Shown here: piece by piece, positions 1,130-63,679 of the stretch
Position numbering within the stretch: the stretch's first letter is position 1
Layout: each line of letters opens with the position of its first letter
Assembly: GCA_964019415.1 (NCBI GenBank)
Contig: OZ025868.1
Location: 13,862,123 to 13,926,122 of the forward strand
Reading direction: 5' to 3'
DNA length: 64,000 bases
DNA from: Ianthella basta
Lineage: Eukaryota; Porifera; Demospongiae; Verongiida; Ianthellidae
Program-made: the position numbers and the translations under genes
The notes under the pieces: model-generated
Seen by the model: only the letters and a program-made list of their open reading frames with translations
What the model was told of the DNA's origin: nothing
Database searches by the model: none

Positions 1130-1314
1130 AGTTCAAGTGTGGGTATAGCTAATGCTGAAAGGCCACCCTCAGCAACTGAACTGCTAAATGAAGAACATAG
1201 TGGGAATGCAACCAGCAGTGATGTTGTAATGGAGGCCAACCCTGCAATCAGCCACTGGAGACAGCAGCTGCAGATCTCGAAATAGGAACAATAGAGTCTG
1301 AGTATTATATTTAG
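1130..1314 (+). pseudogene. R0: relic of a receptor tail A last exon
   Basis: The acceptor (gatgcag) and the first codons (SSSVGIANAERPPSAT) match the last exon of R1. Within the conserved ANPAYQPL motif one base is missing (tgcaatcag instead of tgcatatcag). This shifts the frame, removes the NPxY tyrosine and hides the YYI end before the TAG at 1312. No ITAM, membrane or extracellular exon lies between the window start and this exon, so it is a stranded tail or the end of a copy whose front is gone. Confidence 0.75.
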
Positions 1315-1850
1315 AGATTCTTCAACAACTCTGAAAGGGAAGGATTGGTTAATATTTGTGCATTCATTTCCAGGGTACATTCATCCTGGAAACAATAATT
1401 ATTATGGATATAATTGTTGCAACTACGTAGCTGCCTGTTGGGTTGCAAAACTATTATACAGCTTGAGTTGATAATGTTATGCAGAAAGATGAGTGAAAAG
1501 CACACAAAATGTTCAGTGGCTCAGAGCAATTGCATAGGCTATAGTCTCTATGCAGTCATAAATAACCATGAAGTAACTAATGAAATATCTTGCACAATGT
1601 TCTGCATGCATATTACGATATTATATTTGACGTGATTGACACAGTAGATGAATTGTGCATACTGAAATGGATGCCAACTGTGGTTAAATGTTAAATGAAG
1701 TACTTGAAGTGAAGAAGGTGTTCCTGGCACTATGTGAAACTCAGATCTAAGCTTAAGCTTTCCCTGGAAACTGGAACACGCAGATGACGGCACATTCAAT
1801 TGATTTAGTCATTATCCTCACACATGTGCATGTGTGTAAAATGTCTAAGA
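1315..1850. repeat. 3' flank duplicated with the array (family a)
   Basis: This non-coding stretch is closely similar to 5877-6450 and 40442-41110, each directly after a tail A last exon. Shared segments include the AACTAGCTGCCTGTTGGGTT stretch and the GAAACTCAGAT region. It shows that duplication units extend well beyond the coding exons. No ORF here is conserved between the three copies. Confidence 0.7.
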
Positions 1851-1859
1851 ATTATTGAG

Positions 1860-2230
1860 TCCGCGGGATAATCTCCTTCAATTCCGGACCGAACTACACG
1901 AAACGTGGTAGAATTACGAAGAGGCGTACTGTGAGTAACCTTGCCGAGCCGAAATTTGGTTTAAGGTCTTTCCTTTCGAGTTCTTGCCACTTTTACGGCC
2001 GCCGCCTATCAGTGGTCACGTGGCGATATCAGGGGCTAGCAATTTCTTGCCGCAATTTGCAGTAGCTTCAGGCGAAGAAGCTGTTTCGCAAGGATACAGC
2101 TAGCTGCACCGGTTAGGAAACGGATGTCCGAATAAGAATGGGTCACAATATCATTTCCTGCTGGAAAGAGACGAATTCAAAGCGATCGGATTCTTTGCGT
2201 GAGCGCGTAGCTTGGGCCTAGAGGCTACAG
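1860..2230 (+). promoter_or_regulatory. R1 upstream block with non-coding first exon
   Basis: It shares sequence with the regions upstream of R2, R6 and R7, including the stretch around gcaatttcttgccgcaa and the segment ending gaggctacag|gtacgt. That last point is a perfect splice donor at 2230/2231, and the matching acceptor is directly in front of the R1 start codon at 2314. The exon ending at 2230 is therefore probably 5' UTR. The transcription start is not visible. Confidence 0.5.
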
Positions 2231-2314
2231 GTACGTATCCAGCTACTGTGAAACTGTGTTCTTGGTCAACGGCTTAGACAGTGAACTTGTTCAAACATGT
2301 GTTCACTTCTACAG

Positions 2315-5300
2315 ATGATGTTGCTCCTTGTTCACACTACACTTGTAGTGTATGTAGCCTGTTCTCAAGTGATGGCTGCGGACTCAGGTTGGTAGTTAGT
2401 ACAGGCTCTCTTATACGTCCAGCCAGCCAGCTTAAAAAGTATCGGGTTTCATAGTTACTAGTATATAATATTATAACACTGTTTAACTAAGTGTCTCTTC
2501 TTAGCTATACTGTTTACTAGTAATATGAAGTTTATTCTATGTTAGTCCTTCCTGCTTTATGTTAACTTACTTTAATGTACATTGGAATAAATAAATTAAA
2601 TAATTTAAATACATGTTTGTCCCTTCTCAGTCACTCTTATACTAGCTCTATCAGGAGATGCTGTACCAACAGACACACTTGGTGAATATGTTGTACCAGA
2701 GAGGGGCAATGTTACATTCACTTGTAACAGTAGCGATGTAGCTCCAGCATGGAAAGTAGACTTGAAAACATTGGGTAGCACTTTGGGTTTTAGTCACACT
2801 GAGATACTACTGTCAGAACTAGAAAGTGTGAGTTCATCAGATATTGGCTCTTTTCCCAACCCAACGAGCTTCACTGTTCACAACATTCCAACAGAGAGCA
2901 ATGGATCGTATGTGGAATGTACTGCCCAAGGCCGTGCCAATTCCATTGCAATAATCTTTGTGGAAGGTGAGTGACATTCCTTGGCAATCCCTTCACAAAG
3001 GCTGCACATATATATCAATCGCAATTATTGTTTACTGATGCTGGATGCTATTCATATCAAATTTCATAGGCACAGAACCATTACAAATGTAGTATTGTCA
3101 ATAACTGATCGAACACGTGGTGCTATTTTCTCATCTCTGCAGGCACCCCAAATTGTCCCAGTATTCAGACTAATTTTACTAAGGTGGATTCATTGGCTGT
3201 TTCAGTACAGCAATCACACAAGACATGGTTAACTGTGTGTTACAATGTTGAGGTTACTTCAACTAACATGTCAATAGTCATGACGCACAATTCAACTATA
3301 ACAAGTGATGGTTTTGTTGAAGTGAAGTCACTTCAACCTGCCACAGTCTACAACATCTCAGTCACTCCATGTAACATGGTGGGATGCAACAAGTCATGTG
3401 ACATGCATTCAGTGCAAACAGCTGCAGTACCTAGAGGAGGTGGTGAGTATGGCATGCAAAATCATGTATATTATAGCTGTGATGGTAATCGTACATAGTG
3501 TGATATAGTGCATACCTATTGAGAATGAGAACACCTCAGTTATCTTTCACCTACATGTATCTGTTATTGTTAGTGCTAGATCCTGGAGGTGGTGCTGTTG
3601 GGGATCCATTTCTCACTATTGGACTACCCATTATTGCTGTGGCAGTACTGGCAATACCCATTGTGCTAGTATCAACAATACTATTGACATATTCCTACAG
3701 CAGGTTCGTTTTCATTATAATTAATGCAGTTGAATACATGTTGTGCTTGGGGTACTTTCATATGCTCATAATTTTGTCCTCCCATTTGCAAGTAATGGTG
3801 TGTACCTCTTCATGTTCACTTTCAGGAGATGGAGGGGCAAACAGAAGAATGTGAGTTGTGCAGCCACCATTTTAACCTCCTCATCTATCATCCTGTGCAC
3901 TGGGAATGCTACCATATAATAATATCAATGCTGACGATGTCCAATGTATAGTGTGTGTGTGTACGCGCGTGTGTGCGTATGTACTAGCACATGAAGTTTC
4001 AAGTTAGAACGGCGAGTGTATGCATGGTATAATATACTAGTAGCTTATGTAGTTCCCTGAAAAGATAGAGTAGATAAATATGCCATCTTGATGATCGTGC
4101 TTTAATAGTTTTTGTTTGGAGAAGTTGTTATTAATCTGAGAAGCTAGAAACAAGGAGTACCCCCTGCAGAAGCTCTCAATAGCTATTCAGTGGGGGAATG
4201 CGGCAGCAGTGCTCGGGACTGCTGAGAGAGACAGGGAACGGGATCCCTTCTGGGATTAACCTACTGCATGTAATTGTTCAATGACTTGTTATTCTTGTAT
4301 TTATTCCATTAATTTATCATTATTTCATTGTTTTTTCCCTCGACAGCACAATAGTACAGGCGTTTTTTGTTTTACTATTATATATTTGTGCATAGAATGG
4401 AAGCAGAGAGCAACGTTATGAAGACATTGTGGCAGTTGACTCAGCCTATGATGATATACTGGCCATGTCTGCTACTCTTCGTAATCCTGCTCATGCTGTA
4501 AGTCAACTTCTAGTGACACTTTGTAACAACACTGAGGGATATGAAGTGATACACAGCGCTCCATCTATCACTAGATGTGAGGAGTAGTGCATGAGTTTGT
4601 GTGTGTCACATAATTATTGTGACAAACCTTGTCACATACAGTCCTCTAGTGAAGGACAGTGTTGAATTTTTGACAGCTGGGAATTGGTATAATTATTATA
4701 CACAATTGTGATTATATGCACATGCATCAGCGTTCCCTTCTCGGAAGAGCAAAACAATAGTATATAGTGAGATCCTCCTGCTGCACAACGTAATAATAAT
4801 ATGTGAATTATAAAATTTGAGCCAACAAGTTCCGTTATGTATGTGCCAGAGCATAAATTGGTGATACTTAATATTACTATTTGGTATACTACACACACAC
4901 TATACAATACTACATAAGTATACGTACAGAGCTGCATGCAACTCACATTGGAGCAGCAGCCACTTGTATGGTTTATATTTCTGGTTTAGTGAACTCAATG
5001 CTCTCAAAATGTAGTTAAGTGCACCATATCTTGATGATCATGCTATTTCTTTATGTTGCTGTATCTGTGCATAGAATGAAGACATTGTGGCAGTGGACAC
5101 AGCCTATAATGATATACTGGCCGTGTCTGCCACTCTTGAAGCTGTAAGTCAGCTTCCAGTACCACTTGGCAATAACACTGAGGGTTATGAAGTGATGCAC
5201 AGTGCTCATCTATCATTGGACGTGAGAGATGAAGTGAGTCAGTTAAATTATGCTACACACCATGGACATGCACAGTCCTCTAGTATAAGCTTTAAGGTAC

Positions 5301-5876
5301 TGCCAAATTGGAGGTGCCATAAAATTCTGAGCATGTGCATATGCATCCACTTCTTGGATGAACAAAATTTGTGAGAATTCTTTGCATATCTCTTGTCATT
5401 TCCAACTTCAGTGAAAATTAAAAGCTCTCTGCATTTTCCCCAGTGCATGAGGACGTATGCATGGTGCTCAACATGAAAAATGTTAACTTTTCTGAGAGTA
5501 AAATATAATATGAACTAATGGCCAACTACTTCAAAATCCTAAGCATTATAATCATGGATAGCATAATATAGGTTTCTCTAGACCCAACGTTGGAGGCTGG
5601 TTTGACTCACGAGACTGACATGTACCAAGATGTCACGAGTAATTTATGCATTATAATTGTCATTTCTTTTTGATTACTTGTGTGATGCAGAGTTCAAGTG
5701 TGGGAATAATTAATGCTGATAGACCACCCTCAGCAACTGAACCACAGAATGAAGAACATAGTGGGGCTGTGACCAGCAGTGATGTTGTAATGGAGGCCAA
5801 CCCTGCATATCAGCCACTGGAGACAGCAGCTGCACATCTCGAAATACGAACAATGGAGTCTGAGTATTATATTTAG
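2315..5876 (+). CDS. R1: Ig-FN3 transmembrane receptor with ITAM-like tail (class I ectodomain, tail A)
   Basis: Predicted exons: 2315-2387, 2631-2966, 3143-3442, 3574-3703, 3826-3850, 4396-4497, 5075-5221, 5691-5876. All have AG/GT borders and joined frames, giving 432 residues. Residues 1-24 are a signal peptide (MMLLLVHTTLVVYVA). Residues 25-136 are an Ig-like domain with the Cys-Trp-Cys core (TFTCNSS, AWKVD, YVECTAQG). Residues 137-236 are FN3-like (TVYNISVTPCNMVGC) with five conserved Cys. Residues 237-279 hold the membrane helix, followed by basic residues. The tail has YEDIVAVDSAYDDI (Tyr 296 and 306), a second diverged copy with only YNDI, YEVM, ANPAYQPL and C-terminal EYYI. A cell-surface recognition receptor that signals through tyrosine phosphorylation is inferred. 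No transcript evidence. The ITAM exon could alternatively run past its gtaagt donor, but that extension is frameshifted here. Confidence 0.8.
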
Positions 5877-7862: not shown

Positions 7863-7945
7863 GTACGTATCCAGCTACTGTGAAACTGTGTTCTTGGTCA
7901 ATTGCTAAGACAGTGGATTCTCCAAAAATGTGTACACTTCTACAG

Positions 7946-10914
7946 ATGATGTTGCTCCTTGTTCACACTACACTTGTAGTGTATGTAGCCTGTGCTCAAG
8001 TGGTGGCTGTGGACTCAGGTTGGTAGTTAGTACAGGGCCTGGCTCTCTTTATATACCATTAGCTAGCTAGCTGGTTAACGCCTAAGCCTACAAAATGCAT
8101 CGGGTTTTATAGTTACTACTTAAAGTCTTTAACTAAGTGTCTCTTCTTAGGTACTGTTTACTGGTAATATGAAGGTTACTGTATGTTAGTCCTTCCTGCT
8201 TTATGTTAACTTACTTTATTGTATATTGGAATTATAAATAATTTAAATATATGTTTGTCCTTTCTCAGCCACTCTTATACTAGCTGTATCAGGAGATGCT
8301 GTACCAACAGATACACTTGGTGAATATGTCGTACCAGAGAGTGGCACTGTTACATTCACTTGTAACAGTAGCTTTGCAACTCCAGTATGGAAGGTAGACT
8401 TGAAAACATTAGGTAGCACTGCAGACTTCAGTAACACTAAGACACTAGTGTCAGATCTACAAAGTGTGAGCTCATCAGATATTGGCTCTTTTCCCAACCC
8501 AACAAGCTTCACTGTTCACAACATTCCAACAGAGAGCAATGGATCTTATGTGGAATGTTCCACCCAAGGCCATGCCAATTCCACTGCAATAAACTTTGTA
8601 GAAGGTGAGAACTTGTACCAGTATTGTGTGATTGCAAATGGCTGTTTTGTGACAGCATAACACTCTCTAATTTGCTGCCATGGCATGTTTTTATGTAATT
8701 GTGAGAAGCCACTACTGCATAAAACAAGACCTGTATCTTCAACTCATGAAAGTCAAGAGAACCTGAATGACATGCAATCCATGCACGTAGGATACACGAT
8801 ATAATTTATTTACTTAACTGCATGATAGCTTTGTCATAGTATGTTCTGGGTAATTACAGCGTGGGGAATCCCTTCACAAAGGCTGCACATGTTATATCAA
8901 TTGCAATTATTGTTTACTGATGCTGGGTGCCATTCATATCAAATTTCATAGGCACAGAACCATTACAAATGTAGTATATTTTGTCAATAACTGATCGTAT
9001 ATGTGGTGCTATTTTCTCTTCTCTGTAGGCTCCCCAAATTGTCCCAGTATTCAGACTAATTATACTAAGGTGGACTCGTTGGCTGTTTCAGTACAGCAAT
9101 CACACAAGACATGGTTAACTGTGTGTTACAATGTTGAGGTTACTTCGGTTAACATGACAATAGTCGCTTTGCACAATTCAACTATAACAAGTGATGGTTT
9201 TGTTGAAGTAAAGTCACTTGAACCTGGCACAGTCTACAATATCTCAGTCACTCCATGTAACATGGTCGGATGCAACGAGTCATGTGAAATACATTCAGTG
9301 CAAACAGCTGCCGTACCTACAGGAGGTGGTGAGTATGGCATGCAAAGCCATGTATTGAGCTGTGATGGTAATCCTACATAGCATGCATATACTACATACC
9401 TATTATACCCGTGACAATGAGAACACCTCAGTTATCCTTCACCTACATGTATCTGTTTTAATTAGTGCTAGATCCTGGAGGTGGTGCTGTTGGGGATCCA
9501 CTTCTCACTATTGGACTACCCATTATTGCTGTGGCAGTACTGGCAATACTCACTGTGCTAATAATGATAATACTATTGACACTTTTCTACAGAAGGTTAG
9601 TTTTCATTATCATTATTGCAGTTGAACACATGTTGTGCTTGGGGTACTTTCATATACTCATAACTTGTCCTCCCATTCACAAGTAATGGTGTATATACAT
9701 CTGATCATTCACTTTCAGGAGGAAATCGAGAGGCAAACAGAAGAAGGTGAGCCTGCATGGTCACATAGTCATCATTTTCACATCCTCCTCCGTCATCCTG
9801 TGCACTAAGGGATGCTACCATGCATATTGATACTGACTATGTTAAATGCATGCGTGTTTGTGTGTGCATGCATGTGTGTGTGTGTGTGTGTGTGCGTGCG
9901 TGCGTGTGTGTGTGTGTATGAGTGTACAAGCACATGAATTGGTGTTACTAAAAGTAATTTAGGTAATAGCACTTACAGCACACGCAGCTTGGTGGAAATA
10001 TGGTGTTTCAAGTTAGAACAGCATCCCCATTCATGATTTATAATACTAATTTAGTTCCCTGCGCGAAGTGCTCTCAAAATGTAGATATATGCGCATCTTG
10101 ATGATCATGCGATAATATAGTTTTGTTTTTGCTGTATACATTTGTGCATAGAATGGAAGCAGAGAGCGACATTATGAAGACATTGTGGCAGTTGACTCAG
10201 CCTATGATGATATACTGGCCATGTCTGCTACTCTTCGTGATCCTGCTCCTGCTGTAAGTCAACTTCTAGATACACTTCATAACAACACTGAGGGTATGAA
10301 GGATATGAAATGATACACAGTGCTTCTCCGTCACTGGATGATGATATGTAGTTCATGAATCTGTGCGTGTCACACAATTAAAACACAGTCACATTCAGTC
10401 CTCTAGTGCATGACAGGGTTGAAATGCTGACAGATGAGAATTGGTGCTCAATTGTGAGCAGCGCTCCCTTCTTAATGAGCAAACAGTAATGGTGACATCC
10501 TTCTGCTGCACAACATTATACAAAATGGGCCAACAGGTTTCTGGGCTTAAACAAGACGGCATAATTTAAAATTATAATTATGCATGCTGCCCACTACACC
10601 TATTCTTGGATACCAATTGAAGCATCTATTCAAGTAGTAAAGTTCGACCCATGAGTCTGATATGTAGAAATTGATTTTGTTGTTTTGATAATGATAATCA
10701 TATAATGACATTCTGCTACTTTGTGCCACAGAATTCGGGTGTGAATATCATTATTGCTGAACAAGCAACCTCCCAGTTACCTAGCTATGAAGAACATAGC
10801 GGGGGTGTGACCAGCAGTAATGTTGTAATGGAGGCCAACCCTGCTTATCAGCCACTGGAGGCAGCAGCTGCAGATCTCAGCACTGGAACAATAGAGTCTG
10901 ATTATTATATTTAG
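7946..10914 (+). CDS. R2: Ig-FN3 transmembrane receptor with ITAM-like tail (class I, tail A)
   Basis: Predicted exons: 7946-8018, 8269-8604, 9029-9328, 9466-9595, 9719-9746, 10152-10253, 10732-10914; joined frame of 383 residues with no stop. Order: signal peptide, Ig domain (TFTCNSS, VWKVD, YVECSTQG), FN3 domain with SPNCP and VTPCNMVGCNESC, membrane helix (LTIGLPIIAVAVLAI), basic segment SRGKQKK, then the tail. Tail tyrosines: Y297 and Y307 in YEDIVAVDSAYDDI, SYEEHS, ANPAYQPL and DYYI at the end. Compared with R4 and R5, the last exon lacks about 11 codons between SY and EEHS. It differs from R1 in having one ITAM exon instead of two. Many NxS/T sequons in both ectodomains suggest glycosylation. 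Activating signalling is inferred from the motif only. Confidence 0.82.
9851..9918. repeat. (TG)n microsatellite in R2 intron 5
   Basis: An imperfect TG/CG tract lies in the intron between the basic exon and the ITAM exon, the same place as in R4, R5 and R8. Confidence 0.9.
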
Positions 10915-12704: not shown

Positions 12705-15700
12705 ATGCTGCTCCTCGCTGTTTACACTGTACTTATTTGTGTTATATGGTGCCTGGACTCACGTTGGGGCAGTGGAATTGCGTTAGTATCTAGAATGTAG
12801 CTACAGCTAGCTAACGTTTGTCTTAGAAATTAATCATGTCTAAGCCTACAATAGCATCCAGACTGCCTACTATTATATACTTGTAGTTAGTTGTTTAGTT
12901 TTATGTTTTATGTGTGTGTTTAAGGGTTTGTGTTACGGATTTATTGCCATTATGAACTTGAATGCTTGTTTGTCCTTGTCAGTAACTCTAGATGTTTCAG
13001 GTGAAGCTGTACCAATTGATATCCCTGGTGTATACGTTGTACCAGAGAAGGAGGATGTTACATTCACTTGTAACAGTAGCAAGCAGGATGTTTTTCCAAG
13101 TTGGAGAGTAGACTTAAAAGGCCTAGGTAACACTTCTGGTTTTGTTAATAGTACACAAGTTTCTTCTTTGCCAAGTGTGAGCTCACAAGGGGGTGGCAAT
13201 CCAACAAGCTTCACTGTCCGCAACATTTCATCAAAGAGCAATGGATCAGTTGTGGAATGCATGGCTGGATTCTCGACAGCTAAGGGCCTAAGATTCTCAA
13301 TAATATTAAACACAGAAATCTTGGTAGAAGGTGAGAGTTTGTATGTACCTACGTATCAATCACATGCAGCAGAAACTGTATTGCTCTGTATATAGCTGCA
13401 GCATTCATCATTGGTATAATTATATCTTTATTAAGGAAGATGGTGCAGAACATAGAAACCATTATGCAGTTATGCCATCCTATATAGAAAGGTATGGCAA
13501 AACCAGCTGGCAGAAAAACCATAGGAACAAGGGGGAGGGCCGGTCCATGCAAAGAAGGGGGTCAGTTGGTCCATGCAACAAGGAGGAGGGCCGGTCCATG
13601 CAAAACCCAGGTCATTAACATGTGCTGACTTTGAATACGTTTACCCCATTCCTACATCTGCCAACATTTTGCTGCGCCTCCTATGCAGTATATATACTAC
13701 TGCATGCCCATTCCAGCTCTTCAGCTTCCCCTTTACACCCACAGGTATAGCCTTACAATTTTTCCATCTTTCTGCATGCTTTGTTGCATGTGCTCTGTAA
13801 ACTAGTTATTTAGCTTATCCTCGCAAATTGCTTGCTACTCAATCTACTCTGCTGTGCTCTAGAATCTAGACCCTCCTAGTCTTCTATGCAATCCATTATG
13901 TGTTTCCATGTATCAGCTAGTTGCAGGACCCATATTCTTTGGATTCATCACTTATGTAGCTATGCATCTTGCTCCGCCTTGAGCCCCTGGAAAACCACCC
14001 AGCTCAACTACTAGTACATGTTATTGTTTACTATTGCTCTTCACTACATTGCTGCCTGCAAACAGTGCACCCATTTTCAGGCCCTCTCTGTTTGGCTCTA
14101 CACTGTAAAAACAGTGATGGTTTCGGGCCACCCGTGGTGGTTCTCAAGGACAAGCAGGGGTCTCAAAATAAACAACCACTGTAACACATGCATTTAGTCC
14201 CTGTGAAACACCAATGGCGATCTGAATCCAACACTGTTTTACAGTGTACACCAGCACAAACATTGTACACTTCACTGTCAACACTTGTGAAGTTCAAACT
14301 CCCTATATCCAGGATGTGAATGGCTTATACAGTGTACAGAGTGCAGCTGTACATGTGCCATGGTGCACACCAGACTGCAGTTTCTGGCTATTCAGGCTTT
14401 CCTCATTAGCGCTTCAGTCACATACGTGGATGTATGCATGCAGCATGGTGGTATATGTACTGTACATGGGAACATGTTATAGCTAGAATGGGCATATATG
14501 CATGCAATAAGATAGTCTACTGTGGCAGCCTTTGCTATTGCACACTCACATGTACAAAAGCACTATAATACGCAGGCAGAGAAAAAGGGGATGGTAGTAA
14601 GACTGCAAGCACAGCAAAATGTTGGCAGACGTAGGGATGGTGAAAACGTATTCAAAGTCAGCGCATGTTAATGACCTGGGTTTGCATGGACCGGCCTCCT
14701 CCTTGTTGCATGGACCAACTGACCCCCCTCTTTGCATGGACCGGCCCTCCTCCTTGTTCCTGTGGTTTTTCCGTCATGTGGTTTTGCCCTACCTTGCAGG
14801 TACGCACTGCACCATCCCTACATCTGCCCTTGTTTTTGGAGGAAACAATTTTACACACCCATGTTTCTATACTTTTTATGGAATGCAAATTATACATGGG
14901 CTGGTTGACTTTTAAGGCTTACAAACAACAGTGGCAACAAAGGGACATTCTCTGAATCATGGCAGAGTGTGTAGCACCATAGCACAATGTGGTTTGTGTC
15001 TGGGTGGCCAGCTTAGGGTAGGCTGTGGGTCAAAGATTATTACAATTACCTGTTTGGATAGGCTGAGAGTTAGTTGTGATGCAGGCTAGGACGCAGAACA
15101 GGGGGGTTAGGGGCTGTAGCCCCCCCCCCCCCCCCAAAAAAAAAACTTGATCTAGGTAATCTTGTCCACCATTCGTCACCTAGCAGCTCCTATAAACCCA
15201 ATCTTCGCTCGCTGTCAGGAGGGATATGCTGGCTTTATGTAGCTATAGCTAGAGCTACCCACACCACAGGTGATCTAGATGTAGCTATGGCCCCTACATA
15301 CAAGAGATTTGCACCATATTTACCTACATCTCTGATGTAGGCTGTGGAGTGGAATTAATGCGCTGGCCGGAAACAACCGCACAGTAATTGCAAATGGCTG
15401 TCAAATGGCTCGACCGCGGATGACCTTCGATAACGGCACGCAGACGAACGCTAGTCAAAGCTAGTCTTGTATTCACCTTCGAACAGTCATCTGACCGCGC
15501 TGTGCAACTATTGCATCGAAACTGAACGAGGATTAGGCGAATATTAATAACGGTGGCCAAAGCGTGTGGTGACGTCGGCATAAAATGGCGTCTTTTTCCA
15601 TGAACGCCTAACTATCTTCCGGAAACCTCTATTTGTGAACTTGCTCGCAGAGTCATCTAACCTACAAAAGGCACTTACCCGTCGGAAGCGCTGTAGAACT

Positions 15701-18143
15701 GTGGGTAAATTATTATCTTACTACCTATCGTTCGTGCGCTACGGTTGACGACGAAGAAGAAGACGAAACACGGAATAAGGCGTCGACGCTTTCTACACAA
15801 CGGCGCGCGCGCGTGGAAGTAAGGTTACCTCTGTATACTGTACAGCCTCCTTTCCTTGTAGGCGGTTTCTTGTGGCGGCTCTTACTACTGTTCAGGAGTA
15901 GCGATACTTCCGTTTGTATTACAGCATACAAACAACCACTACCATCCCTACATAGACAGCACTACCGTGCTGTCTGATGAACCTGCTGCCAAATTTAACC
16001 ATAGCAGTTGTGTGTGAATGCAACATAATGGTGGCACTTGGGTATGTTAGCATTCAGGGAAGGCAAAACATTGTGCTCACTCTAGTGCTGTACTTATTGG
16101 ATTGACACTGGTGCTTGGCTATTCGCCCTTCATGTCTGTATGCAAGTCCGGACCTCATACGAGATTTATGTACACAGGTGTCATGCTCCTGCAAAACAAA
16201 TTAGAGGGAAGAAGGTGAATAATGATGAATTGACACAATAGGGAGACAGCAGCATATAGCACTTTTCTATTACATGCACTCCAGGCTGACTTTGGGTTCA
16301 CTACTGTCTTCAATACATAGAATGAAGCTTAAGTGTATTCCTAGCCCATAGTTGTTCTTCACTGCCAACGCTTGTCTAGTTTCACTGAAGCGGGCTAATG
16401 CAATAAGATAGGAGTAGCTACTTTATCAGCCACATTCCTAAATAGACATCATGAGTGTGACTTCTGATAGATTTATAATATTATCTAAAATTGAACTAGC
16501 TGAAAGTCAGTGTACAGTTTGCAGGAAACCCTTAAGCATATTGCTCGAGCACTCAGCCTAGACCACTTTGATATATTTGTATCCTGTGTAATGTCTATCT
16601 GCACTTTATATTCTTCAAGATACATGATAACATGAATTTAACACAGCACTGAATGAATATTTAAATGTTGGGGAATTATATAGCTTTGCGTGCCACTTAA
16701 GGATGACAACAATTTCTAATTCCTCTGCTTGTAACTCTTCTGCTGATGTCCACTGCAACACAATTATTCTGCACTGTACAGCTGCATTTCTGTTAATACT
16801 TATTGCCTCTCTGCATACAGGCTCTCCAAACTGTCCCAATACTCAGATTAGAAACATCACAAAAGATTCGTTGGTTGTTTCTGTGCAGCAATTACACAGG
16901 ATGTGGCTACCAGTGTGTTACCATGTCAAGGTTACATACTACAACATGTCAGTAGTCACTGCACACAATTCAAGCTCTTCAGGTGATGGGTCTGTTCCAG
17001 TGACTTCACTTCAACCTGGCACATTCTATAACATCTCAGTCACTCCATGTAACATGGCCGGATGCAATGAGGCTTGTAAAATACATTTAGTACAAACAGC
17101 TGCTGTGCCTACAGGAGGTGGTGAGTGTGGCATGCAAAGTCAACAACATGTAGCTGTGATGGCATTCCTACATAACGTGATGTAGTGCCTACCTACCCGT
17201 GACAATGAGACCACCTCACGCAGTTATCCTTCACCTACATGTATCTGTTATAATTGTTAGTGCTAGATCCTGGAGGTGGTGCTGTTGGGGATCCACTTCT
17301 CACTATTGGACTACCCATTATTGTTGTGGCAGTACTGGCAATACTCACTGTGCTAGCAACAATAATACTATTGACACTTTTCTACAGAAGGTTTGTTTTC
17401 ATTACAATTTATTGCGGTGGAACACATGTTGTGCTTGGGGTACTTTCATATTCCTAATTTGTCCACCCACTCACAAGTAATGATGTATACCACTTCACTT
17501 CCGCTTTCAGGAGAAGATTGAGTGGGAAACAGAAGAAGGTGAGTAGCCTGGATTTATAATCTGTGACACAGCTCAGACTATACTATTGTGCCTTGTGGAA
17601 TTACATACAATTAAATACGTACACAATGTATAGTTCCTAAGACAGTGCATGTGGTGATTATATCATATCTTCCACAAGTGACCTTGATTGATTGGTAATT
17701 GAGGACTAATGTCATGTTCAATGAAGCAAAGTGACTATCCAACGTTGGTGTACACACAGGATGGAACAGAGCGAGGAGGCATTGAAGACAAGTGTAGGAA
17801 TACTAAGGAATATGCTGAAATTGTTCCTAACACAACATCAACCAAAGGGAACTCATTGCAAGGGCCAGCTAAGGCAGCTTACACCAGTGCACCTGGAGCT
17901 AGCGCAATGGAATATTCAACAGTGCAGGATGCCGTTTTCAATTCCCAACAGAAAAGTACGAAGACAGCCACTCTGCCACCAGTATCACCTCCTCCTCTTC
18001 CTCCGCCCTGCACACCAGGGGATGCTACCAAGTGTATTGATGCTGACAATGTCCAAGATGCAGGATATGCTACTGTTCCACAATGTCAAGGTTCAAAACG
18101 GATCACTAAGGTTCGAGGTACACAGCAAAATACTAATCAGTAA
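12705..18143 (+). CDS. R3: Ig-FN3 transmembrane receptor with proline-rich tyrosine tail (class II ectodomain, tail B)
   Basis: Predicted exons: 12705-12762, 12983-13330, 16821-17120, 17261-17390, 17511-17538, 17760-18143; joined frame of 415 residues. The signal exon (MLLLAVYTVLICVIW) is shorter than in other copies. Ig domain: TFTCNSS, SWRVD, VVECMAG. FN3 domain: class II form, VVSVQQLHRMWLPVC. Membrane helix LTIGLPIIVVAVLAILTVL is followed by SGKQKK. Tail B (residues 289-415) is unrelated to the ITAM tail: EYAEI (Tyr 306), EYSTV (Tyr 340), PPVSPPPLPPP and GYATV (Tyr 391). YxxV/I sites and a polyproline run suggest SH2 and SH3 partners. None of the three is a strict ITIM, since position -2 is Lys, Met or Ala. 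The 3.5 kb Ig-FN3 intron holds an inverted-repeat element. This is the only copy in the window with an intact tail B. Confidence 0.78.
13494..14795. mobile_element. Inverted-repeat element in the R3 Ig-FN3 intron, non-autonomous DNA transposon candidate
   Basis: Two arms of roughly 190 nt are inverted copies. The left (from about 13494) reads from atggcaaaaccagctggc through the repeated ggccggtccatgcaaa blocks to ccaacattttgctg near 13674. The right (about 14610-14795) reads back from cagcaaaatgttggcag to gtggttttgccctacc. The roughly 900 nt between them has no transposase ORF. R5 carries the left arm (from about 34067), the interior and a stump of the right arm (near 35130-35163) in the same intron, so the insertion predates the R3/R5 duplication. 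Confidence 0.75.
15118..15147. repeat. Poly-C followed by poly-A run
   Basis: About 17 C then about 10 A. A likely slippage-prone site, and its length may be an assembly approximation. Confidence 0.85.
15350..15950. other. CpG-rich segment inside the R3 intron, unexplained
   Basis: This stretch has many CpG steps (ccgcgg, gacgtc, ggcgcgcgcgcgtg), unlike the CpG-poor, TG-rich surroundings. No ORF reads as a known protein in either direction. It could be an inserted promoter, or a former first exon of another gene. R5 keeps only the small part around gcaaccgcacagtaattgc and has lost the rest by deletion. Confidence 0.4.
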
Positions 18144-44100: not shown

Positions 44101-44278
44101 ACTATACACTATATGTAGTGCATTGTGGAATTATGTACACTATCAATAAACCCCCAGATAGAGCATGTGATAATTATACCATATCTTCCATAAGTGACCT
44201 TAATTATAGTTGGTAATTAAGGAGTAATGTCATTGGCAATCATGCAAAGTAGCTTTCTGACATTGGTCTGCATATATA

Positions 44279-48339: not shown

Positions 48340-50158
48340 CTAGCTGTACATGTTGAGGTAGCGGATATCCGAATGGGAATGGAAGTAATGGATCGCAGTA
48401 TCAGTCCCTTCCGGAGGAGACGAAGTCATATCAATCATCAATTTTCTCCTCGGTTTCTTTACATAAGAGCCTGAGAGGCTACAGGTACGTCTGTTCTTTA
48501 TCGTTGACGCTGGATTATACAGAAAATTTGTCCACTTATGTGTTCACTTCTACAGATGATGTTGATCCTTGTTCACACTACACTTGTAGTGTATGTAGCC
48601 TGTACTCAAGTGGTGGCTGTGGACTCAGGTTGGTAGTTAGTACGTACAGGCTCACTTCATATTGCTAGCTATAGCTAGTTAACTTCTAAGCCAACAAAAG
48701 CATCAGAATTTCTACTTGATACTTCATAAAAGTACTTTTTTTTAACTAAGAGTCTCTTCATGTGTTTTAATTGTTCAAACACTTTAGTTACTGTTTATTG
48801 GTAAAATGAAGTTTATTGTATACGTGTCCTTCCTCAGTCACTCTAGCTCTATCAGGAGATGCTGTACCAACAGATGCACTTGGTGAATACGTCGTACCAG
48901 TGAGAGGCACTGTTACATTCACTTGTAACAGTAGCTCTGCAACTCCACTATGGAAAGTAGACTTGAAAGCATTAGGTAGCTCTACAGATTTCAGTAACAC
49001 TAAGACGCTATTATCACAGCTACAAAACGTGAGCTCATCAGATATTGGTTCTTTTCCTAACCCAACAAGCTTCACTGTTCACAACATTCCAACAGAGAGC
49101 AATGGATCATATGTGGAATGTTCTGCCCAAGGCCGTGTCAATTCCATTGCAATAATCTTTGTAACAGGTGAGAACTTGTTGCCTTAATTGTTGTGTGCTT
49201 GCAAAAGGCTGTTTTGTGACAGATTGATACTCTCTAATTTTCTGCCACAGCAATGTCTCTGCCAGAGACATTGCTGTATAATTCAGAATGTATCTATGCA
49301 ATTGTGAGAAGCTGCTGATACATCACACAAGAGCTTCATGCATGTGTCTTCAGCTCATGAAATTCAAGAGAGCCTGAATGAATGTATATTATAATTATAG
49401 TGTAATCCATGGATGCAGGATTCATGTTGTTACAGTATATAATTTAATTTTTTCTTTCTTTTCTTTATTTAATTTTACTTTTAATAATCGCAAGATAGTG
49501 TTATTATAGTATGTTCTGGGTATTATTGCATAGGGTAGAGCTGGGAAATCACAAATTCACAAAGGCTGCACACATCAATTGCAAATATTGTACACTGGTG
49601 CAGGATGCATGCTGTGTTCTCATCTCTGTAGGCTCCCCAAATTGTCCCAATGTTCAGACTATATTCAATAGGGTGGATTCGTTGGCTGTTTTAGTATATC
49701 AATCACACAAGACATGGTTAACTGTGTGCTACCATGTTGAGGTTATATACTTCAACTAACATGTCAATAGTCACAATGTACAATTCAACTATAACAAGTG
49801 ATGGTTTTGTTGAAGTGACTTCACTTCAACCTGGCACAGTCTACAACATCTCAGTCACTCCATGTAACACAGCAGGATGCAACAAGTCATGTGACATGTA
49901 TTCAGTGCAAACAGCTGCAGTACCTACAGGAGGTGGTGAGTATGGCATGCAAAATCATGGAGCTGTCATGGCAATCCTGCATAGCGTGATATAGTGCACA
50001 CCTATACCAGTGACAGTGTGAACACCTCATGATCAGTTATCCTTCACCTACATGTATCTGTTATTGTTAGTGCTAGATCCTGGAGGTGGTGCTGTTGGGG
50101 ATCCATTTCTCACTATTGGACTATCCATTGCTGTGGCAGTACTGGCAATACCCACAGT

Positions 50159-51624
50159 GTTAAAAATATGGTGTGACCGTCATACCACTCAGTGCTCACA
50201 CCAAGTTGTGATCAGTCACCCCATTACTTTAGTGTGACATTGACACTGACACCAGCGCACTGTTGTTCACATCATTTCTGTTAGAGTAAGAGAACAAATT
50301 CATATGCAAAAGGAGGAGAGTTAACTATGAATCCTACAAGATTTAAGAATATATGTAGCTACTGTCAGAGACAGCTTATCCTGATGGTATGTTGTGTGCA
50401 GGCAGTGGGAGGACATCCTTAAACTATGTATGCTCTCTGTGTACTTTAATGTACCATTAGGGGCTTTGTGTCACCCACTAACAATCCCACCAGGTGGTAT
50501 GCTGTGTACTATCTGTAGGCAAATCTTCAAAGCAGTGTATATACCATATCTGCAGTGAAATGTACCGTTAAGCTCAATCATGTGATTATGTTTGCACGCA
50601 ACAATTATACAAACTGTTCTAATAAATGGTTTGCTGTGTACTATAGCTACATAATACAAATCTTCAAAGTAGTGCACCATATCTGCAGTGAAATGTACTG
50701 TTAAACTCGATTATGTGACTATATTAGTTTTGTTATACATACTGTTCTGATAAATGGTTAGCTGTGTGCTACATAATACAAAGCAATGTACCACATCTGC
50801 AGTGAAATGTACCGTTAAACTTGATTATGTGATTATATTAGTCTTATTATACAAACTGTTCTGAAAAAGGGTTTGCTGTGTACTAGCTACAAAATACAAA
50901 TATACAATTTAGTGTATCATATCTGCAGTGAAATATTATAGCTAGCTAGCTAGCTACCATGAAGTGCTTAGCCTCTTACAAGCTGCTCACATAAATGTTG
51001 TGCTGTGTACTGCATGGTTAGAGTGAACATCACACTCAGCATAGGCGGCGGAACCATAGGCACAGGAGGCACAATCCCCACACAAGTTACATTATGGAGG
51101 GGGCAGTGCCCCACAAGTTTTCCCAAAGGCTTTGAAAGAAAATTGTTAGGATATGCTACATTCATTAAACATTGTATTAACTTACAACCTTATTAATTTG
51201 TGAATGAGCTTCAATAATATTTAAACTGATCGTTTACTACCTTAAAAGAAGATTCGAGGAAGAATTAAACAGTGAGCCATATCAGTGCGAATTGGCCGCC
51301 ATTTTCCATGAAGTCACAAACATACTATCTGGTATTCTCAATTCTTTTGAATAATTAAATATTTATGTGAATCATTTTATGAATTTTTGTAATGCTCAGT
51401 GATTTTATTGCAAATTTGTGATAGCCATGTTATCTGATGGCTGCAATTAGGTTTTCCAGTTGCTACAAACTGATAATATGGCTGTGCATGCAGCAACTAC
51501 AAGGTTGTAGTACCACCCCTAAATGGAAATATCTTTGTCCGCCTGCACTGCAAATGGGTGTGCTCACAGTGGCAACCAATTCACACCAATTTCGGATGTG
51601 AACATCATTTCATATTTTAACAGT
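50159..51624. mobile_element. DNA transposon inserted in the R7 membrane exon
   Basis: Comparison with R6 (acccactgtgctagtatcaa) shows the exon interrupted at acccac and resumed at cactgtgctagt. The insert begins agtgttaaaaatatg and ends catattttaacagtg, inverted termini of about 15 nt with small differences. Two or three bases (CA or CAC) look duplicated at the target. No transposase ORF. The interior holds a minisatellite. The superfamily is uncertain; the ends resemble hAT or similar types. Confidence 0.75.
50500..51010. repeat. Minisatellite of about 125 bp units inside the R7 insertion
   Basis: The start of each unit, gctgtgtact or a variant, recurs at about 50502, 50632, 50761, 50875 and 51002. 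The phrase catatctgcagtgaaatgta recurs once per unit. Spacing is 114-130 nt. Confidence 0.85.
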
Positions 51625-52168
51625 GCACTGTGCTAGTATCAATAGTATTATGGACATATTTCTACAGAAGGTTAGTTTTCATTATAATTATTGCAGTTGT
51701 CAATGAAAACATGTTGTGCTTGGGGTACTTTCATATAATCATAACATTGTCCTCCCATTCACAAGTAATGATGTGTATCTCTTCTCATTCACTTTCAGGA
51801 TGACATTGAGAGGCAAACAGAAGAAGGTGAATAGCCTGGATACGTATTCCATGAAATGGCTGCTGTATAATTATAGACTATACACTGTAGTGCATTGTGG
51901 AATTATGTACACTATATCAATAAACCCCCAGTTAGAGCATGTGATAATTATACCATATCTTCAATAATGTATCTTATTGGTCATTGTCTATCCAAGCTAC
52001 GGACCATGCACAGTACTTGTATCATTGCCCTATACACAAGTGTACACACTTAGTCACCCATGTGTTGCAGTATAATAATTATATAGCTATTCTTTGTACT
52101 AACATTGTAACAGGAAACAAGTACAAGATGTACAGGTTATTATAGCTACAAATGACATGAATATGGGA

Positions 52169-52368
52169 NNNNNNNNNNNNNNNNNNNNNNNNNNNNNNNN
52201 NNNNNNNNNNNNNNNNNNNNNNNNNNNNNNNNNNNNNNNNNNNNNNNNNNNNNNNNNNNNNNNNNNNNNNNNNNNNNNNNNNNNNNNNNNNNNNNNNNNN
52301 NNNNNNNNNNNNNNNNNNNNNNNNNNNNNNNNNNNNNNNNNNNNNNNNNNNNNNNNNNNNNNNNNNNN
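52169..52368. other. Assembly gap (200 N)
   Basis: Exactly 200 unknown bases, probably a nominal size. It falls where R7 changes from R6-like flank to tail A sequence, and where a TG microsatellite and the ITAM exon are expected. Confidence 0.98.
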
Positions 52369-53063
52369 TTCCAGTGTCACTTTGTAACAACACTGAGGGA
52401 TATGAAGTGATACACATGTACAGTGCTCCTATATATCACTGGATGTGAGAGTATTGTAATGAATCAGTGTGTGTCACACAATTAACACAGTTACATTCAG
52501 TCCTCTAGCGAATGAAAGGATTGAAATGTTGACAGATGAGAATTGGTACATGATTTTGATTATCTATTCATTCATTCATATATGCACATGCATCAGTGTT
52601 CACTTCTTGCTGAGCAAAACAGTAACAGTGAGAGCCTCCTGCTGCACAACACTATGCATATTTTATATGATGATTGAGCCAACAAGTTCTGGGCTTAAAC
52701 AAGGTAGCATAAGGATTATAATTATGCTGCTCACAACACCCATTCTTGGATACCACTTAAAGCATCTGAAATATTCAAGTATTTAAGTCCGGCCCATGAG
52801 TCTGATATGTAGAAATTGATTGAGTTGCTTTGGTATAATAATATCCATATTATGCCTTCTGTTAGGTTGTGCCACAGAGTTCAAGTGGGAACATCATTAT
52901 TGCTGAACAAGCAACCTCCCAGTTACCTAGCTATGATAACAGATCAGCAACTGATCTCCAATATGAAGAACATGGTGGGGGTGCGACCAGCAGTAATGTT
53001 GTAATGGAGGCCAACCCTGCTTATCAGCCGCTGGAGGCAGCAGCTGCAGAACTCAGAGTCTGA

Positions 53064-57609: not shown

Positions 57610-58475
57610 CTGTGTCTGTGTGTCAACTCAGCCTATGATGATATACTGGCCATGTCTGCCACTCTTTGCAATCCTACTGTAAGTCAGCTTCCAGTACCAC
57701 TGGTAGTAGCACTGAGGGATATGAGGTGATGCACAGTGCTCCTCTATCACTGACTGTGAGAGATGAAATGAGTCTGTTTAATTGTGCTACACAGCAAGGA
57801 CATGCACAGTCCATTAGTGCAAGCTTTAGATATGACCAAAATGCTGCCAAATTGGAAATGACACATAATTCTGAGTATATATGGGCATAATTGTGCATCC
57901 GCTTCCTGGATGAGCAAAACTTGTGATACTTCTGTCCATTTTCTTGTCTTTCCAACTTCATATTATATATTTGCATGACATTGTACCAACCTCAGTCTCT
58001 TAATCTGCATTTTCCCAGTAAGGAAATAGTGCTCAACATGAATAATGTTTTTCCAAGGGCAAAATATGAAATGAGACATTGCCAACTAGTTCAAATTCCT
58101 AAGCTTAAACATAAATAGTACAGTATAGGTTATTCAATAGACCCAACGTCAGAGGCTGGTTTAACTCATGAGACTGACATGTACCAAGATATTGCGAATA
58201 ATTTATGCACTATTATAAATTTCATTTCTTTTCTGTTATTCTTGTGATGCAAAGTTCAAGTGTGGATATAATTAATGCTGATAGACCACTCTCCCAGCTG
58301 CACCATTCTGATGATAGGTCAGCAACTGAACCACAGAATGAAGAACATAGTGGGGGGGGGGGGGGGGGTGACCAGCAGTGATGTTGTAAGGGAGGACAAC
58401 CCTGCATTTTAGCCACTTGGAGACAGCTGCAGCAGATCTCAACACTGGAACAATAGAGTCTGTTTTGTCCACAAA
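57610..58475 (+). pseudogene. Orphan tail A exons after the LINE
   Basis: Paralogue of 38861-39600. It has SAYDDILAMSATL, then a one-base deletion before EGYEVMHS, and a last exon from 58255 whose acceptor AG is mutated to AA (shared with 39480). A poly-G run of about 17 (58352-58368) interrupts the last exon, and the NPAY codons are altered (ccctgcattttag). Confidence 0.65.
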
Positions 58476-59080
58476 GGGAACACTTAATCAATATGCACAT
58501 GCATGAATATTGATAATAGCTGCCATTATGGTTGTTGAATCATAGAATATAGCTTGAGTTGATATAAGGAAGGAAGGAGAGAATGTGTCAGGGAAGTGGC
58601 ACTCAATCTCCACAGGCAGGCACGATATAGGCATCTTGACGTTTGCTGATGATGATAATGATGGCTGAGACAGAAGAGGCATTTCAGTGCTATGTGCATG
58701 GAGACGATGCATGAGGCACTGACCAGATGGGGCCTAAGAGTGGAATTGGAAGACGTCAAAGGTACAGAGAGTAGTGAGAAAGAGGGTGGAGTGTCAGGTA
58801 ATGATTGGAGAGAACAGTTAGAGCAATCTCGATAATTTTATCTTGCAAGTTTTAAATTGTCTTCTGAGCAGGCCCTTCAATTTGTCTCTTGTTAAGGCTA
58901 AAAGTTGCTAGCGAAAATTTAGTGGTCATTTCAATACTGTATTGCCCTTGGCATCATGAAATGATTGAATGGTGAATTGAAATTTAATATTATGGAATTA
59001 GTCCTCAATACAATATTATGCTACGCGCAAACCTTGAATCTGTGCAAAGCTGCAATCTTTTGTATTGTGTGTGATATATC
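58476..59080. mobile_element. Family b flank with reverse-transcriptase relic, then unique sequence
   Basis: 58500-58830 repeats the rt-relic flank (gacgtttgctgatgatgat). From 58830 to 59080 nothing is recognised. Confidence 0.45.
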
Positions 59081-59275
59081 CACCTGTGTGTTACCGAGTT
59101 ATACTTTCTACAACATGTCAGCAATCACTGTACATGCATAATTTGATTGTAACAAGTGATTGTTGGTTGAACTGAAGTCACTTCAGTCTAGCACAGTCTA
59201 CATAATCTCAGTCACTTCATGCAACATAGCAGGATGCAGCTGCAGCATATGTCATGTGACATCAATTCACTGGAA
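59081..59275 (+). pseudogene. Degenerate FN3 exon before R8
   Basis: Follows the receptor FN3 exon (tgtgtgttaccgagttatactttctacaacatg; then cacagtctacataatctcagtcacttcatgcaacat) with several indels and stops. No signal or Ig exon is found upstream. Confidence 0.65.
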
Positions 59276-59371
59276 AGACGTGAGATGATCTGAATGCATT
59301 TATGCTCTTTAGTTATGAACAAGGAGCGTAGTATTCTGTTTCAAAGTACATCTCTTCTTGCTTACAAGCTC

Positions 59372-59432
59372 ACTCAGATGCAGAGGATCTGTTGAAACTA
59401 CATTTCGATGTCATTTTCAATGTGGGATTTTG
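59372..59432 (+). pseudogene. Decayed copy of the alternative membrane exon start
   Basis: actcagatgcagaggatctg resembles the start of the exon at 59500 (attcagagcaagaggatgta) and the similarity continues for about 60 nt (gaaactac, ttcaatgtggg). It is a local duplication. Confidence 0.45.
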
Positions 59433-59499
59433 AACTTTTCTAGGTGAATACACAGTTTCACTTGCATATTCAAATCTTCTTGTCTACTTGTCCATTCAG

Positions 59500-61050
<1,551 letters not shown>

Positions 61051-62569: not shown

Positions 62570-62665
62570 GGCTAGTATATTTATAGAGGCCTGGGCTGGA
62601 ATGAAGCCGGGCTCGAATAGAGGCCGTGTCAACCAGAAATAGAGGCCTGCGGGCGTCTATTCGGA
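62570..62665 (+). promoter_or_regulatory. Class II upstream block with TATA-like site and inverted repeat (R9)
   Basis: A tatatttatagaggcctggg segment is followed by cgaatagaggc (62613) and its near complement gcgtctattcg (to 62662). Matches the blocks of R3 and R5. Confidence 0.42.
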
Positions 62666-62919
62666 CATCATGTGCAAAAGTATGTTGCCGGAAGATGCAC
62701 ATGTCCTGCTCTAGCTGACCCACACCCTGGATTGCTATGTAGGGGCCTCACTCTGCGCCTTTCAGTAGCTGCTTTTAGTCTGCGGTTCATTACGCTAGCA
62801 ATTTCTTGTGATAGCTAGCTAGCCATTAATATAGAAGCGGCTGAGCTGCGTAGCTGGTATAATTTGTACAGCTACAAAGTTTAAATAGCTAGCTATAGGA
62901 AGCAGGAAGTCCGAGTATC

Positions 62920-62980
62920 ATGGACATCCGTTACCGCAGGCGGACCAGAGCTTCATCATACACTGGACCTCAGTTCGCAG
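62920..62980 (+). promoter_or_regulatory. Upstream ORF of R9, diverged
   Basis: It starts MDIRYRRRTRAS like R3 and R5, but a deletion changes the phase at the donor (62980|62981). After splicing, the frame no longer ends at the receptor ATG; it overlaps it and ends within the Ig exon. The stop-restart layout of R3 and R5 is thus lost here. Confidence 0.45.
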
Positions 62981-63085
62981 GTACGTAGATCCCTAGCTAT
63001 AGCTACGTAGACGTACAATTGTACTTGGTCAGTGGCTCATTCAAAGAAGTAACCAAAATGATTTCTTTATTTATTTCTACAGATA

Positions 63086-63679
63086 ATGCTACTCCTCACT
63101 GTTTACACTGTACTGGTGTTATATGGTGCCTGGATTCACGTTGTGGCTGTGGACTCGAGTTAGTAGTCTACATAGCTACAGCTAGCTAACGTTTGTTTTA
63201 AAAAGTGTATAATATCTAAGCTGACAATGGCATCCAGACTGCCTACTGTAAAAATTTATACCTGCATTTTGTTGTTTAGTTCATAAAACATTATAAGGGT
63301 TTGTGTTATGGATTTATTGCCATTATGTACATGAATGCTTGTTTGCTCTTGTCAGTAACTCTAGATGTATCGGGTGAAGCTGTACCAATTGATATCCCTG
63401 GTGTATACATTGTACCAGAGAATGAGGATGTTACCTTTACCTGCAACAGTAGCATACAGAATGTTTTTCCATTTTGGAGGGTAGACTTGAAAGTCCTAGG
63501 CAGCATTACTGGATTTGTTGATAGTACACAAGTTTCTTCTCTGCCAAGCGTGAGCTCACAAGGGGGTCGCAATCCAACAAGCTTCACTGTTCACAACATT
63601 TCATCAAAGAGCAATGGATCATTTGTGGAATGCATGTCTGGATTCTCAGGAATATCCAATGCAACAATCTTAGTAGAAG
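63086..63679 (+). CDS. R9: Ig receptor, first two coding exons (class II), continues beyond the window
   Basis: Exons 63086-63158 (MLLLTVYTVLVLYGAWIHVV signal peptide) and 63356-63679 (Ig domain: TFTCNSS, FWRVD, FVECMSG) join in frame with phase 1. The donor at the signal exon is gactcga|gttagt. The Ig exon is eight codons shorter than in R3 near its end (STAKGLRF region). The FN3, membrane and tail exons are expected past position 64000. Closest relatives are R3 and R5. Confidence 0.75.

Follow-up and report, generated by a model that had tools for sequence, protein, structure and literature searches.

The mechanisms of invertebrate allorecognition have been called a "complete mystery" in a review that also reports no conservation of the candidate proteins between sponges, cnidarians and ascidians (PMC12065747). 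In sponges, the known candidate is the aggregation factor (Grice 2017, as cited in PMC12065747). In Hydractinia and Botryllus, candidate allorecognition receptors are reported to carry motifs of the immunoreceptor tyrosine-based activation (ITAM) or inhibition (ITIM) type (PMC12065747). The Hydractinia Alr complex, with 41 genes (PMC11999971), resembles the locus described here in that immunoglobulin (Ig) receptors are clustered in an early-branching animal and candidates carry ITAM/ITIM-type motifs (PMC12065747). A second likeness is offered by the vertebrate paired receptors (CEACAM1/CEACAM3, SIRP, KIR and LILR), where similar ectodomains are placed on activating tails, with an ITAM, or on inhibitory tails, with an ITIM or an immunoreceptor tyrosine-based switch motif (ITSM). 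Among the CEACAMs, ectodomains are kept similar by recombination, and the two members of a putative pair have 80-93% of the IgV domain in common (PMC5112662). Here we analyse a 64-kb stretch of the genome of the demosponge Ianthella basta (C1:13,862,123-13,926,122, C1 being contig OZ025868.1 of a genome of 209 Mb in 96 contigs), hereafter the window, which carries a tandem array of receptor genes with Ig and fibronectin type III (FN3) domains. We propose, with a probability of roughly 0.6, that the window is part of a fast-turnover, single-locus complex of paired activating and inhibitory immune-type recognition receptors.

When the window was searched by tblastn with the exons of its first complete gene (copy 1) as queries (matches at E < 1e-3), eight Ig exons of one receptor family were found, all on the plus strand (2630, 8271, 12976, 28105, 33557, 42658, 48834 and 63349), together with eight FN3 exons or remnants, seven transmembrane (TM) exons and tail exons of two kinds, again on the plus strand throughout. 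With a leading piece of a tail at 1130 and the remains of a copy near 57-61 kb, the total rises to about ten units. This agrees with a preliminary description of the same DNA, which had claimed about ten copies in one orientation, with intact, broken and hybrid members side by side: copies 1 and 2 are complete, copies 5, 7, 8 and 9 are broken, and copies 2 and 3 are hybrids.

The array described there extends on C1 well beyond the window. In genome-wide searches with one exon each of Ig, FN3 and the tail exons T1, T2 and T3, nearly all strong matches fell in a single interval of 534 kb (C1:13.8005-14.3346 Mb), which holds at least 50 Ig, 55 FN3, 41 T1 and 20 T3 exon loci. These counts are lower bounds in which second pieces of split exons were merged, and they omit minus-strand matches (an Ig fragment at 14180876 and a T3 at 14270606) and a weak Ig piece at 13890667. 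Downstream of the 55 counted FN3 loci, the tail is T1 in 24, T3 in 16, both in three and none in 12, "none" meaning that no match lies within 6 kb or ahead of the ectodomain exon that follows. T1 exons are restricted to the interval, except for one match at E 1.16 on contig C21.

The strongest argument for an immune-type system is the presence of two tail classes with opposite-type motifs, which the preliminary description did not contain. We searched cytoplasmic tails for the ITAM as [DE]xxYxx[LI]x6-8Yxx[LI] and for the ITSM as TxYxx[VI]. In the first class, T1 is followed by T2. A T1 exon such as RERRYEDIVAVDSAYDDIL has an acidic residue at -3, a YxxI, six residues and a second YxxI (ExxYxxI-x6-YxxI). 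The strict ITAM is present in eight of the 13 T1 exons of a 261-kb stretch (containing 17,700 N, in blocks that may conceal exons), compared with 27 of 200,000 shuffled versions of one T1 peptide, and each of the 13 has, past the motif region, a donor (GTAAG or GTGAG) that keeps the frame. The T2 tail adds, downstream of the ITAM exon, an NPxY motif (NPAYQPL) and a terminal YYI, both found in five aligned copies. In the second class, T3, 18 of 20 database sequences, the window's own two included, have a TEYAEI or near form of ITSM type, as do three of the five T3 exons of the 261-kb stretch; shuffling one T3 sequence produced an ITSM in 4.1% of cases. Downstream of the ITSM, T3 usually continues with MEYSTV, proline runs and GYATV, which supply YxxV motifs. 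Of the window's two T3 tails, that of copy 6 keeps the ITSM, and in copy 3 a K replaces its T. The ectodomains of both classes are closely similar: in seven equal-length pairs (pairs of unequal length were excluded), Ig residue identity between T3-tailed and T1/T2-tailed genes is 76-92%, the 92% pair involving copy 5, whose Ig carries a stop. Similar ectodomains with either ITAM or ITSM tails correspond, at the level of motifs, to the paired-receptor layout defined for the CEACAMs.

The features of the window are as follows (window coordinates).

1130..1314, plus strand: copy 0, terminal tail exon (T2), frame-shifted, the remnant of a gene starting upstream of the window (tblastn)
2297..2387, plus strand: copy 1 signal-peptide exon, open, with GT donor, phase 1
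2631..2966, plus strand: copy 1 Ig exon, phase 1-1
3143..3442, plus strand: copy 1 FN3 exon, phase 1-1
3580..3703, plus strand: copy 1 stalk and TM exon (splice model)
3826..3850, plus strand: copy 1 juxtamembrane exon, RRWRGKQKN (splice model)
4396..4497, plus strand: copy 1 T1 exon, carrying an ITAM (EQRYEDIVAVDSAYDDI) and, at offset 102, a donor
5075..5233, plus strand: copy 1 T1b, a second T1-type exon that has lost the first ITAM tyrosine (tblastn)
5691..5876, plus strand: copy 1 T2 exon with NPAYQPL, terminal SEYYI and stop (tblastn, splice model)
7928..10914, plus strand: copy 2, complete seven-exon gene with intact ITAM; hybrid, its 5' half like copy 1 and its 3' half like copies 4 and 5
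12705..18143, plus strand: copy 3, with Ig, FN3, TM, juxtamembrane and T3 tail (17760-18143); hybrid, like copy 5 until the TM region and then like copy 6
25582..25656, plus strand: T2 tail fragment (tblastn)
27846..31774, plus strand: copy 4, with signal, Ig (third subtype), FN3, TM, juxtamembrane, T1 with ITAM, and T2
33306..37887, plus strand: copy 5, its Ig exon interrupted by an in-frame stop, the ITAM of its T1 intact, followed by T2
38847..40438, plus strand: partial T1/T2 tail exons without ectodomain (tblastn)
42374..44668, plus strand: copy 6, with signal, Ig, FN3, TM, juxtamembrane, and T3 with TEYAKI (ITSM), MEYSTV and GYATV
48538..53060, plus strand: copy 7, with open signal and Ig exons, a frame-shifted FN3, a truncated TM exon and remnants of the tail
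57616..61050, plus strand: copy 8 remnant, an FN3 piece with stops and tail exons, T2 open, first ITAM motif YEDT
63077..63681, plus strand: copy 9, signal and Ig exons, T1 with intact ITAM, FN3 past the window end and frame-shifted

In copy 1 the exons are joined in the order signal, Ig, FN3, TM, juxtamembrane, then T1 or T1b, and then T2; with either T1 or T1b, and likewise in copy 2, a full open frame of seven exons is obtained using GT/AG junctions only. The junctions predicted in the preliminary description for copy 1 (2387|2631 and 2966|3143) have GT and AG and keep the frame, and the 1-1 phases that it gave to the extracellular exons are correct for the Ig and FN3 exons of this copy. 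Its third junction (17538|17760, copy 3) also has GT and AG in place, the frame being kept on reading of the sequence; in this copy GT and AG are present at the junctions from Ig through T3, and the signal exon is altered (its start was placed by reading of the sequence). Putative acceptors of copy 4 are the AG at 28103-28105 and at 31556-31558, and the frame of copy 6 is open provided that the juxtamembrane donor is shifted by four bases. A 200-base run of N (52169-52368) marks an assembly gap inside copy 7, so exons may be missing there. The product of an intact gene is predicted to be a type I membrane protein with one Ig domain, one FN3 domain, one TM helix and a tyrosine-bearing tail.

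The folds of the Ig and FN3 exons, for which the preliminary description had proposed structure prediction as a check, are both supported by AlphaFold models. In profile searches the copy 1 FN3 exon reached PF25059 at E 1.9e-4 and PF00041 at E 0.008, both below cut-off, and its model matched FN3 of integrin beta4 in Foldseek (E 6.9e-5). Among the matches of the Ig model are adhesion proteins such as Robo1, NCAM2 and SynCAM2, and likewise CEACAM1 and TIGIT. A PDB profile search with the Ig exon gave five matches at E 1 or better, all to the alpha chain of the T cell receptor (E 0.0053 or worse), with KIR and LILR absent among them. A protein search with copy 1 recovered one relative (P0001, 44% identity over 30%). 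A single 22-residue match in a bacterial metagenome-assembled genome was judged spurious, and the viral contigs searched for relatives gave zero matches.

Exchange between copies was followed with identity profiles in 150-base steps. From signal to TM, copy 2 is 85-94% identical to copy 1; beyond the TM exon and through the tail it is mostly 75-95% identical to copy 4, in introns as well as exons, apart from a single step at 53%. Similarly, copy 3 is 94-98% identical to copy 5 around the Ig exon, 91-94% until the FN3 exon and 83-89% through TM, while from about 17.5 kb it falls to 37-60% against copy 5 and reaches 75-87% against copy 6 through T3. Such hybrid genes, with sharp breakpoints near the TM exon, show that tails are exchanged. 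Median differences between matched gene pairs are 29% for Ig and 8% for TM (55 pairs), 29% for Ig and 5% for T1 (21 pairs), and 31% for Ig and 6% for T2 (15 pairs); exons with stops or less than 90% coverage were left out of one exon set. Recombination between copies is seen, but it is TM and tail that have stayed most similar and not the Ig exons. The pattern suggests that ectodomains are old and diverse and that TM and tails are shared around among copies. A 6.5-kb block with copy 5 is found again at C1:14049491-14055990, 154 kb away, at 98.8% identity.

Other elements lie among the receptor units. Between two of them is a LINE-like retrotransposon (long interspersed nuclear element) with a frame of 1184 amino acids from stop to stop (53915-57469, plus strand) carrying endonuclease and reverse transcriptase domains (PF03372 and PF00078), and frames at 22045-22691 (minus strand) that resemble the C-terminal part of its protein are a remnant. 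Microsatellites are also present. Two exon-like frames between copies 3 and 4 (24169-25082, plus strand) belong to an Arf-family small GTPase (PF00025, E 3.4e-22), which we take to be Sar1-like. Beyond the window, in the middle of the array, is a 56-kb tandem satellite (C1:13945903-14001643, L017-L023) with a 35-base unit, as read on its first 3 kb.

Outside the interval, a close Ig and FN3 pair occurs at C1:1.71 Mb. Less similar matches to both exons lie at C1 15.33-15.42 Mb and C9 5.19-5.23 Mb, and the Ig matches on the minus strand at C1 10.64-11.38 Mb are weak (E 2e-6 to 0.6). T2-type tails recur weakly at C1 0.93-1.85 Mb, where such a frame (GVTSSDVAMEENPAYQS; L035 4328-4555) stands near Ig- and FN3-like frames of another kind; the same type of tail appears to be used there on a different ectodomain. 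In a sister Ig-FN3 cluster (C1:15.327-15.421 Mb) a candidate tail frame (L029 6959-7582) has three YEDM, proline runs and NPCYD, YxxM being a motif of phosphoinositide 3-kinase (PI3K) type. On contig C9 (5.185-5.228 Mb; L031 2347-2889), Ig-FN3 frames are followed by a T3-like tail (SEYAAV, VGYGEVLHSAP, PTYASV and GYSVL), which suggests that the T3 type of tail is older than the array. Within the array, a single FN3 is followed by a T3 as well as a T1 exon in three units (C1:14020312, 14079857 and 14095852), where the tail could be chosen by splicing; in the one readable two-tail unit, T3 is shortened after its first two tyrosine motifs.

The 20 matches of the T3 protein search comprised, besides the window's own two, 18 from ENA contigs. 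Two proteins of a 1,214,948-base contig are present in this genome at 100% and 99%. Another contig, of 1,389,587 bases, bears nine of the 20 matches, and two of its T3 proteins that were tested have no full-length match here above 89% and 86%, although one 50-residue piece reaches 90%. With full-length matches of at most 89% for these two of the nine, this contig would represent another haplotype, another individual or a near species with T3 copies of its own. Beside the left end of the array (C1:13.815-13.825 Mb, L011), a minus-strand frame was read as a cytochrome P450 exon and used to look for a shared neighbouring gene on the 1,389,587-base contig; six of its 19 database matches carry PF00067, and none of the 19 is listed for that contig. 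On the mitochondrial contig, TGA is read as Trp (12 times in cox1), and AGA presumably as Arg at six conserved cox1 sites; the contig has tRNAs for R, N and K and one with anticodon TCA (SeC according to the program, read as Trp), and frames that we take to be nad3, nad4L, cox1, cox2 and atp8. In demosponge mitochondria the genetic code is described as minimally altered and the number of tRNA genes as mostly 24 or 25 (PMC2444032). The mitochondrial contig points to a sponge as the host.

Selection was estimated between paralogues as the ratio of nonsynonymous to synonymous change (dN/dS) by the Nei-Gojobori method, with bootstrap ranges. For two FN3 groups, dN/dS is 0.51 and 0.30, with ranges below 1. 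In the TM and signal exons it is 1.61 and 3.86; there are very few silent changes and the ranges include 1, so these exons are better regarded as homogenised than as selected. The preliminary description had called the receptors fast-changing, which holds for the turnover of copies and for the divergence between ectodomain subtypes but not at the codon level, where the Ig values are 0.39-0.57. Selection for change was not detected on the Ig domain by this method in three Ig groups, and positive selection on Ig was consequently dropped as a mark of recognition; residues 33-77 of group A gave 0.63 (bootstrap range 0.32-1.22).

Several observations weigh against a paired-receptor complex. The Ig groups A, B and C have dN/dS of 0.57, 0.46 and 0.39, with all bootstrap ranges below 1. 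Five of the 13 T1 exons fail the strict ITAM, half of the motif being lost in T1b and three other exons and the last I/L being replaced by V in another. The strict ITIM was rejected as a T3 signature, as it occurs anywhere in only two of the 20 database sequences, in one of them outside the conserved tyrosine sites; a divergent T3 exon at C1:13825459 has it twice. Moreover, motif copies lie on homologous exons and are not independent. The contrast between Ig and TM or tail arises from pairs of different Ig subtypes, and inside one subtype Ig and TM diverge equally (10% and 10% between copies 1 and 2); T2 of copy 1 is also 14-17% apart from other T2 exons. About half of the copies in the window are broken. 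Finally, among 70 SH2 matches in the genome, of which two stretches with neighbouring SH2 exons were examined, neither a Syk nor an SHP gene was identified: the two tandem-SH2 candidates for Syk were set aside because their frames read as PLC-gamma-like and SOCS-like. Syk-family kinases are reported to be present in sponges (PMC9601881).

Exon anatomy, folds (by prediction), motifs, tail exchange and turnover are established directly, and a mechanism may be proposed from them. If the receptors are expressed at the surface of a suitable cell type and used in the recognition of foreign cells, as we infer, members with T1/T2 tails (ITAM plus NPxY) would activate. Binding of a ligand to Ig-FN3 would lead a Src-family kinase to phosphorylate both ITAM tyrosines, and the tandem SH2 domains of a Syk-family kinase would then bind the phosphorylated motif, leading to attack or engulfment. 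T3-tailed members (TEYxxI, MEYSTV and GYATV), with a closely similar ectodomain, would damp or redirect this signal through SH2 phosphatases or adaptors, the sign of each signal following from its tail, and the outcome would be set by the balance of both kinds of receptor. Unequal crossing-over and gene conversion would keep making, breaking and re-pairing ectodomains and tails; haplotypes would come to differ, and self could be distinguished from other.

The same anatomy might serve other ends. Phagocytic sponge cells could use these receptors for the capture or engulfment of microbes (food, pathogens or symbionts) and not to recognise other sponges. Tails that combine an ITAM with NPxY are typical of CED-1/Draper-type phagocytic receptors, and NPAYQPL lies in T2, downstream of the ITAM exon, but T3 tails are without NPxY on reading of the sequences. 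Binding to CEACAM3, an ITAM receptor, leads to bacterial uptake and destruction (PMC5112662), and in the oyster microbes are recognised by an ITAM-bearing Ig receptor (PMC11999971). No sequence feature separates microbe capture from allorecognition, and we consider it possible, if on the unlikely side. The preliminary interpretation as a candidate immune or allorecognition complex is thus supported in part. There is good support for a receptor complex, in the clustering at one locus, the folds of Ig and FN3, the TM exon, the ITAM and ITSM tails on the same ectodomain types, and the birth, death and exon exchange of copies. The sequence alone does not separate conspecific tissue from microbes as the target, and allorecognition and microbe recognition or engulfment are both live readings. 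A sponge histocompatibility complex proper, in which receptor haplotypes decide fusion or rejection between individuals, is doubtful. The layout resembles the cnidarian Alr and tunicate FcoR loci, with clustered Ig receptors and ITAM/ITIM-type tails (PMC12065747), and in two tests no full-length T3 copy above 89% was shared with the second contig; yet this contig may be another species', and dN/dS is not raised.

Two further explanations would remove the immune role. Ordinary Ig-FN3 cell-adhesion molecules might have been amplified with tails that serve only endocytosis or cytoskeletal linkage, as YxxI and NPxY double as sorting signals. The matches of the Ig model to Robo1, NCAM2 and SynCAM2, alongside CEACAM1 and TIGIT, fit this, and dN/dS below 1 is also consistent with adhesion, but the kept ITAM spacing, the acidic -3 residue, two tail classes, an ITSM in 18 of 20 sequences and fast turnover would be unusual for housekeeping adhesion, making this improbable. 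It is very improbable that the array is merely decaying, with few or zero working genes. Stops and frame shifts in copies 5, 7, 8 and 9, together with the LINE-like element and the microsatellites, would fit decay; however, two genes (copies 1 and 2) are complete, copies 5 and 9 have kept an intact ITAM despite broken ectodomains, and Ig and FN3 dN/dS of 0.30-0.57, with bootstrap ranges all below 1, mean constraint and weigh against dead genes. We retain the complex of paired activating and inhibitory receptors. A bolder form of it, which we put forward tentatively and rather doubt, is that this locus is the histocompatibility or innate-recognition complex of sponges, and that ITAM/ITSM paired Ig receptors, with live shuffling of ectodomains and tails and haplotypes sharing few members, existed already at the base of the animals. 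If so, balanced activating and inhibitory recognition would either predate the split between sponges and other animals or have arisen anew in sponges.

Compared with the described systems, the units of this array differ from Alr in having one Ig followed by one FN3, the likeness to Alr being drawn from descriptions. Botryllus FcoR proteins are type I receptors with an ITIM, a hemITAM or a core YxxI/L/V, and some swap motifs by splicing (PMC12065747); the three units with T3 and T1 exons after one FN3 are a parallel, the swap by splicing being putative here. In contrast to the Ig-FN3 of the array, the FcoR ectodomain has a V-type Ig, a sushi and two C2 Ig domains. The vertebrate paired receptors differ from the array, which has FN3, exchanges tails within a cluster of about 50 units in a non-vertebrate host, and shows no clear sequence relation to them. 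The tails of CED-1, Draper and MEGF10 combine ITAM-type and NPxY motifs, as proposed for T1/T2, on ectodomains that are EGF-rich and not Ig-FN3. Unlike Ig receptors with signalling tails, the sponge aggregation factor is a complex of proteoglycan located outside the cell (PMC11999971). Among titles and abstracts of the open-licence literature, we found no paired ITAM/ITSM receptor locus described in a sponge. Such a locus would put balanced activating and inhibitory recognition in a sponge, would supply named genes for testing in fusion, in rejection and in the recognition of microbes, and offers a definite starting point for asking how foreign cells are recognised in sponges. The paired-receptor kind itself is known; what appears to be new is its Ig-FN3 form with ITAM and ITSM tail classes, in a sponge host and with tail exchange still visible.

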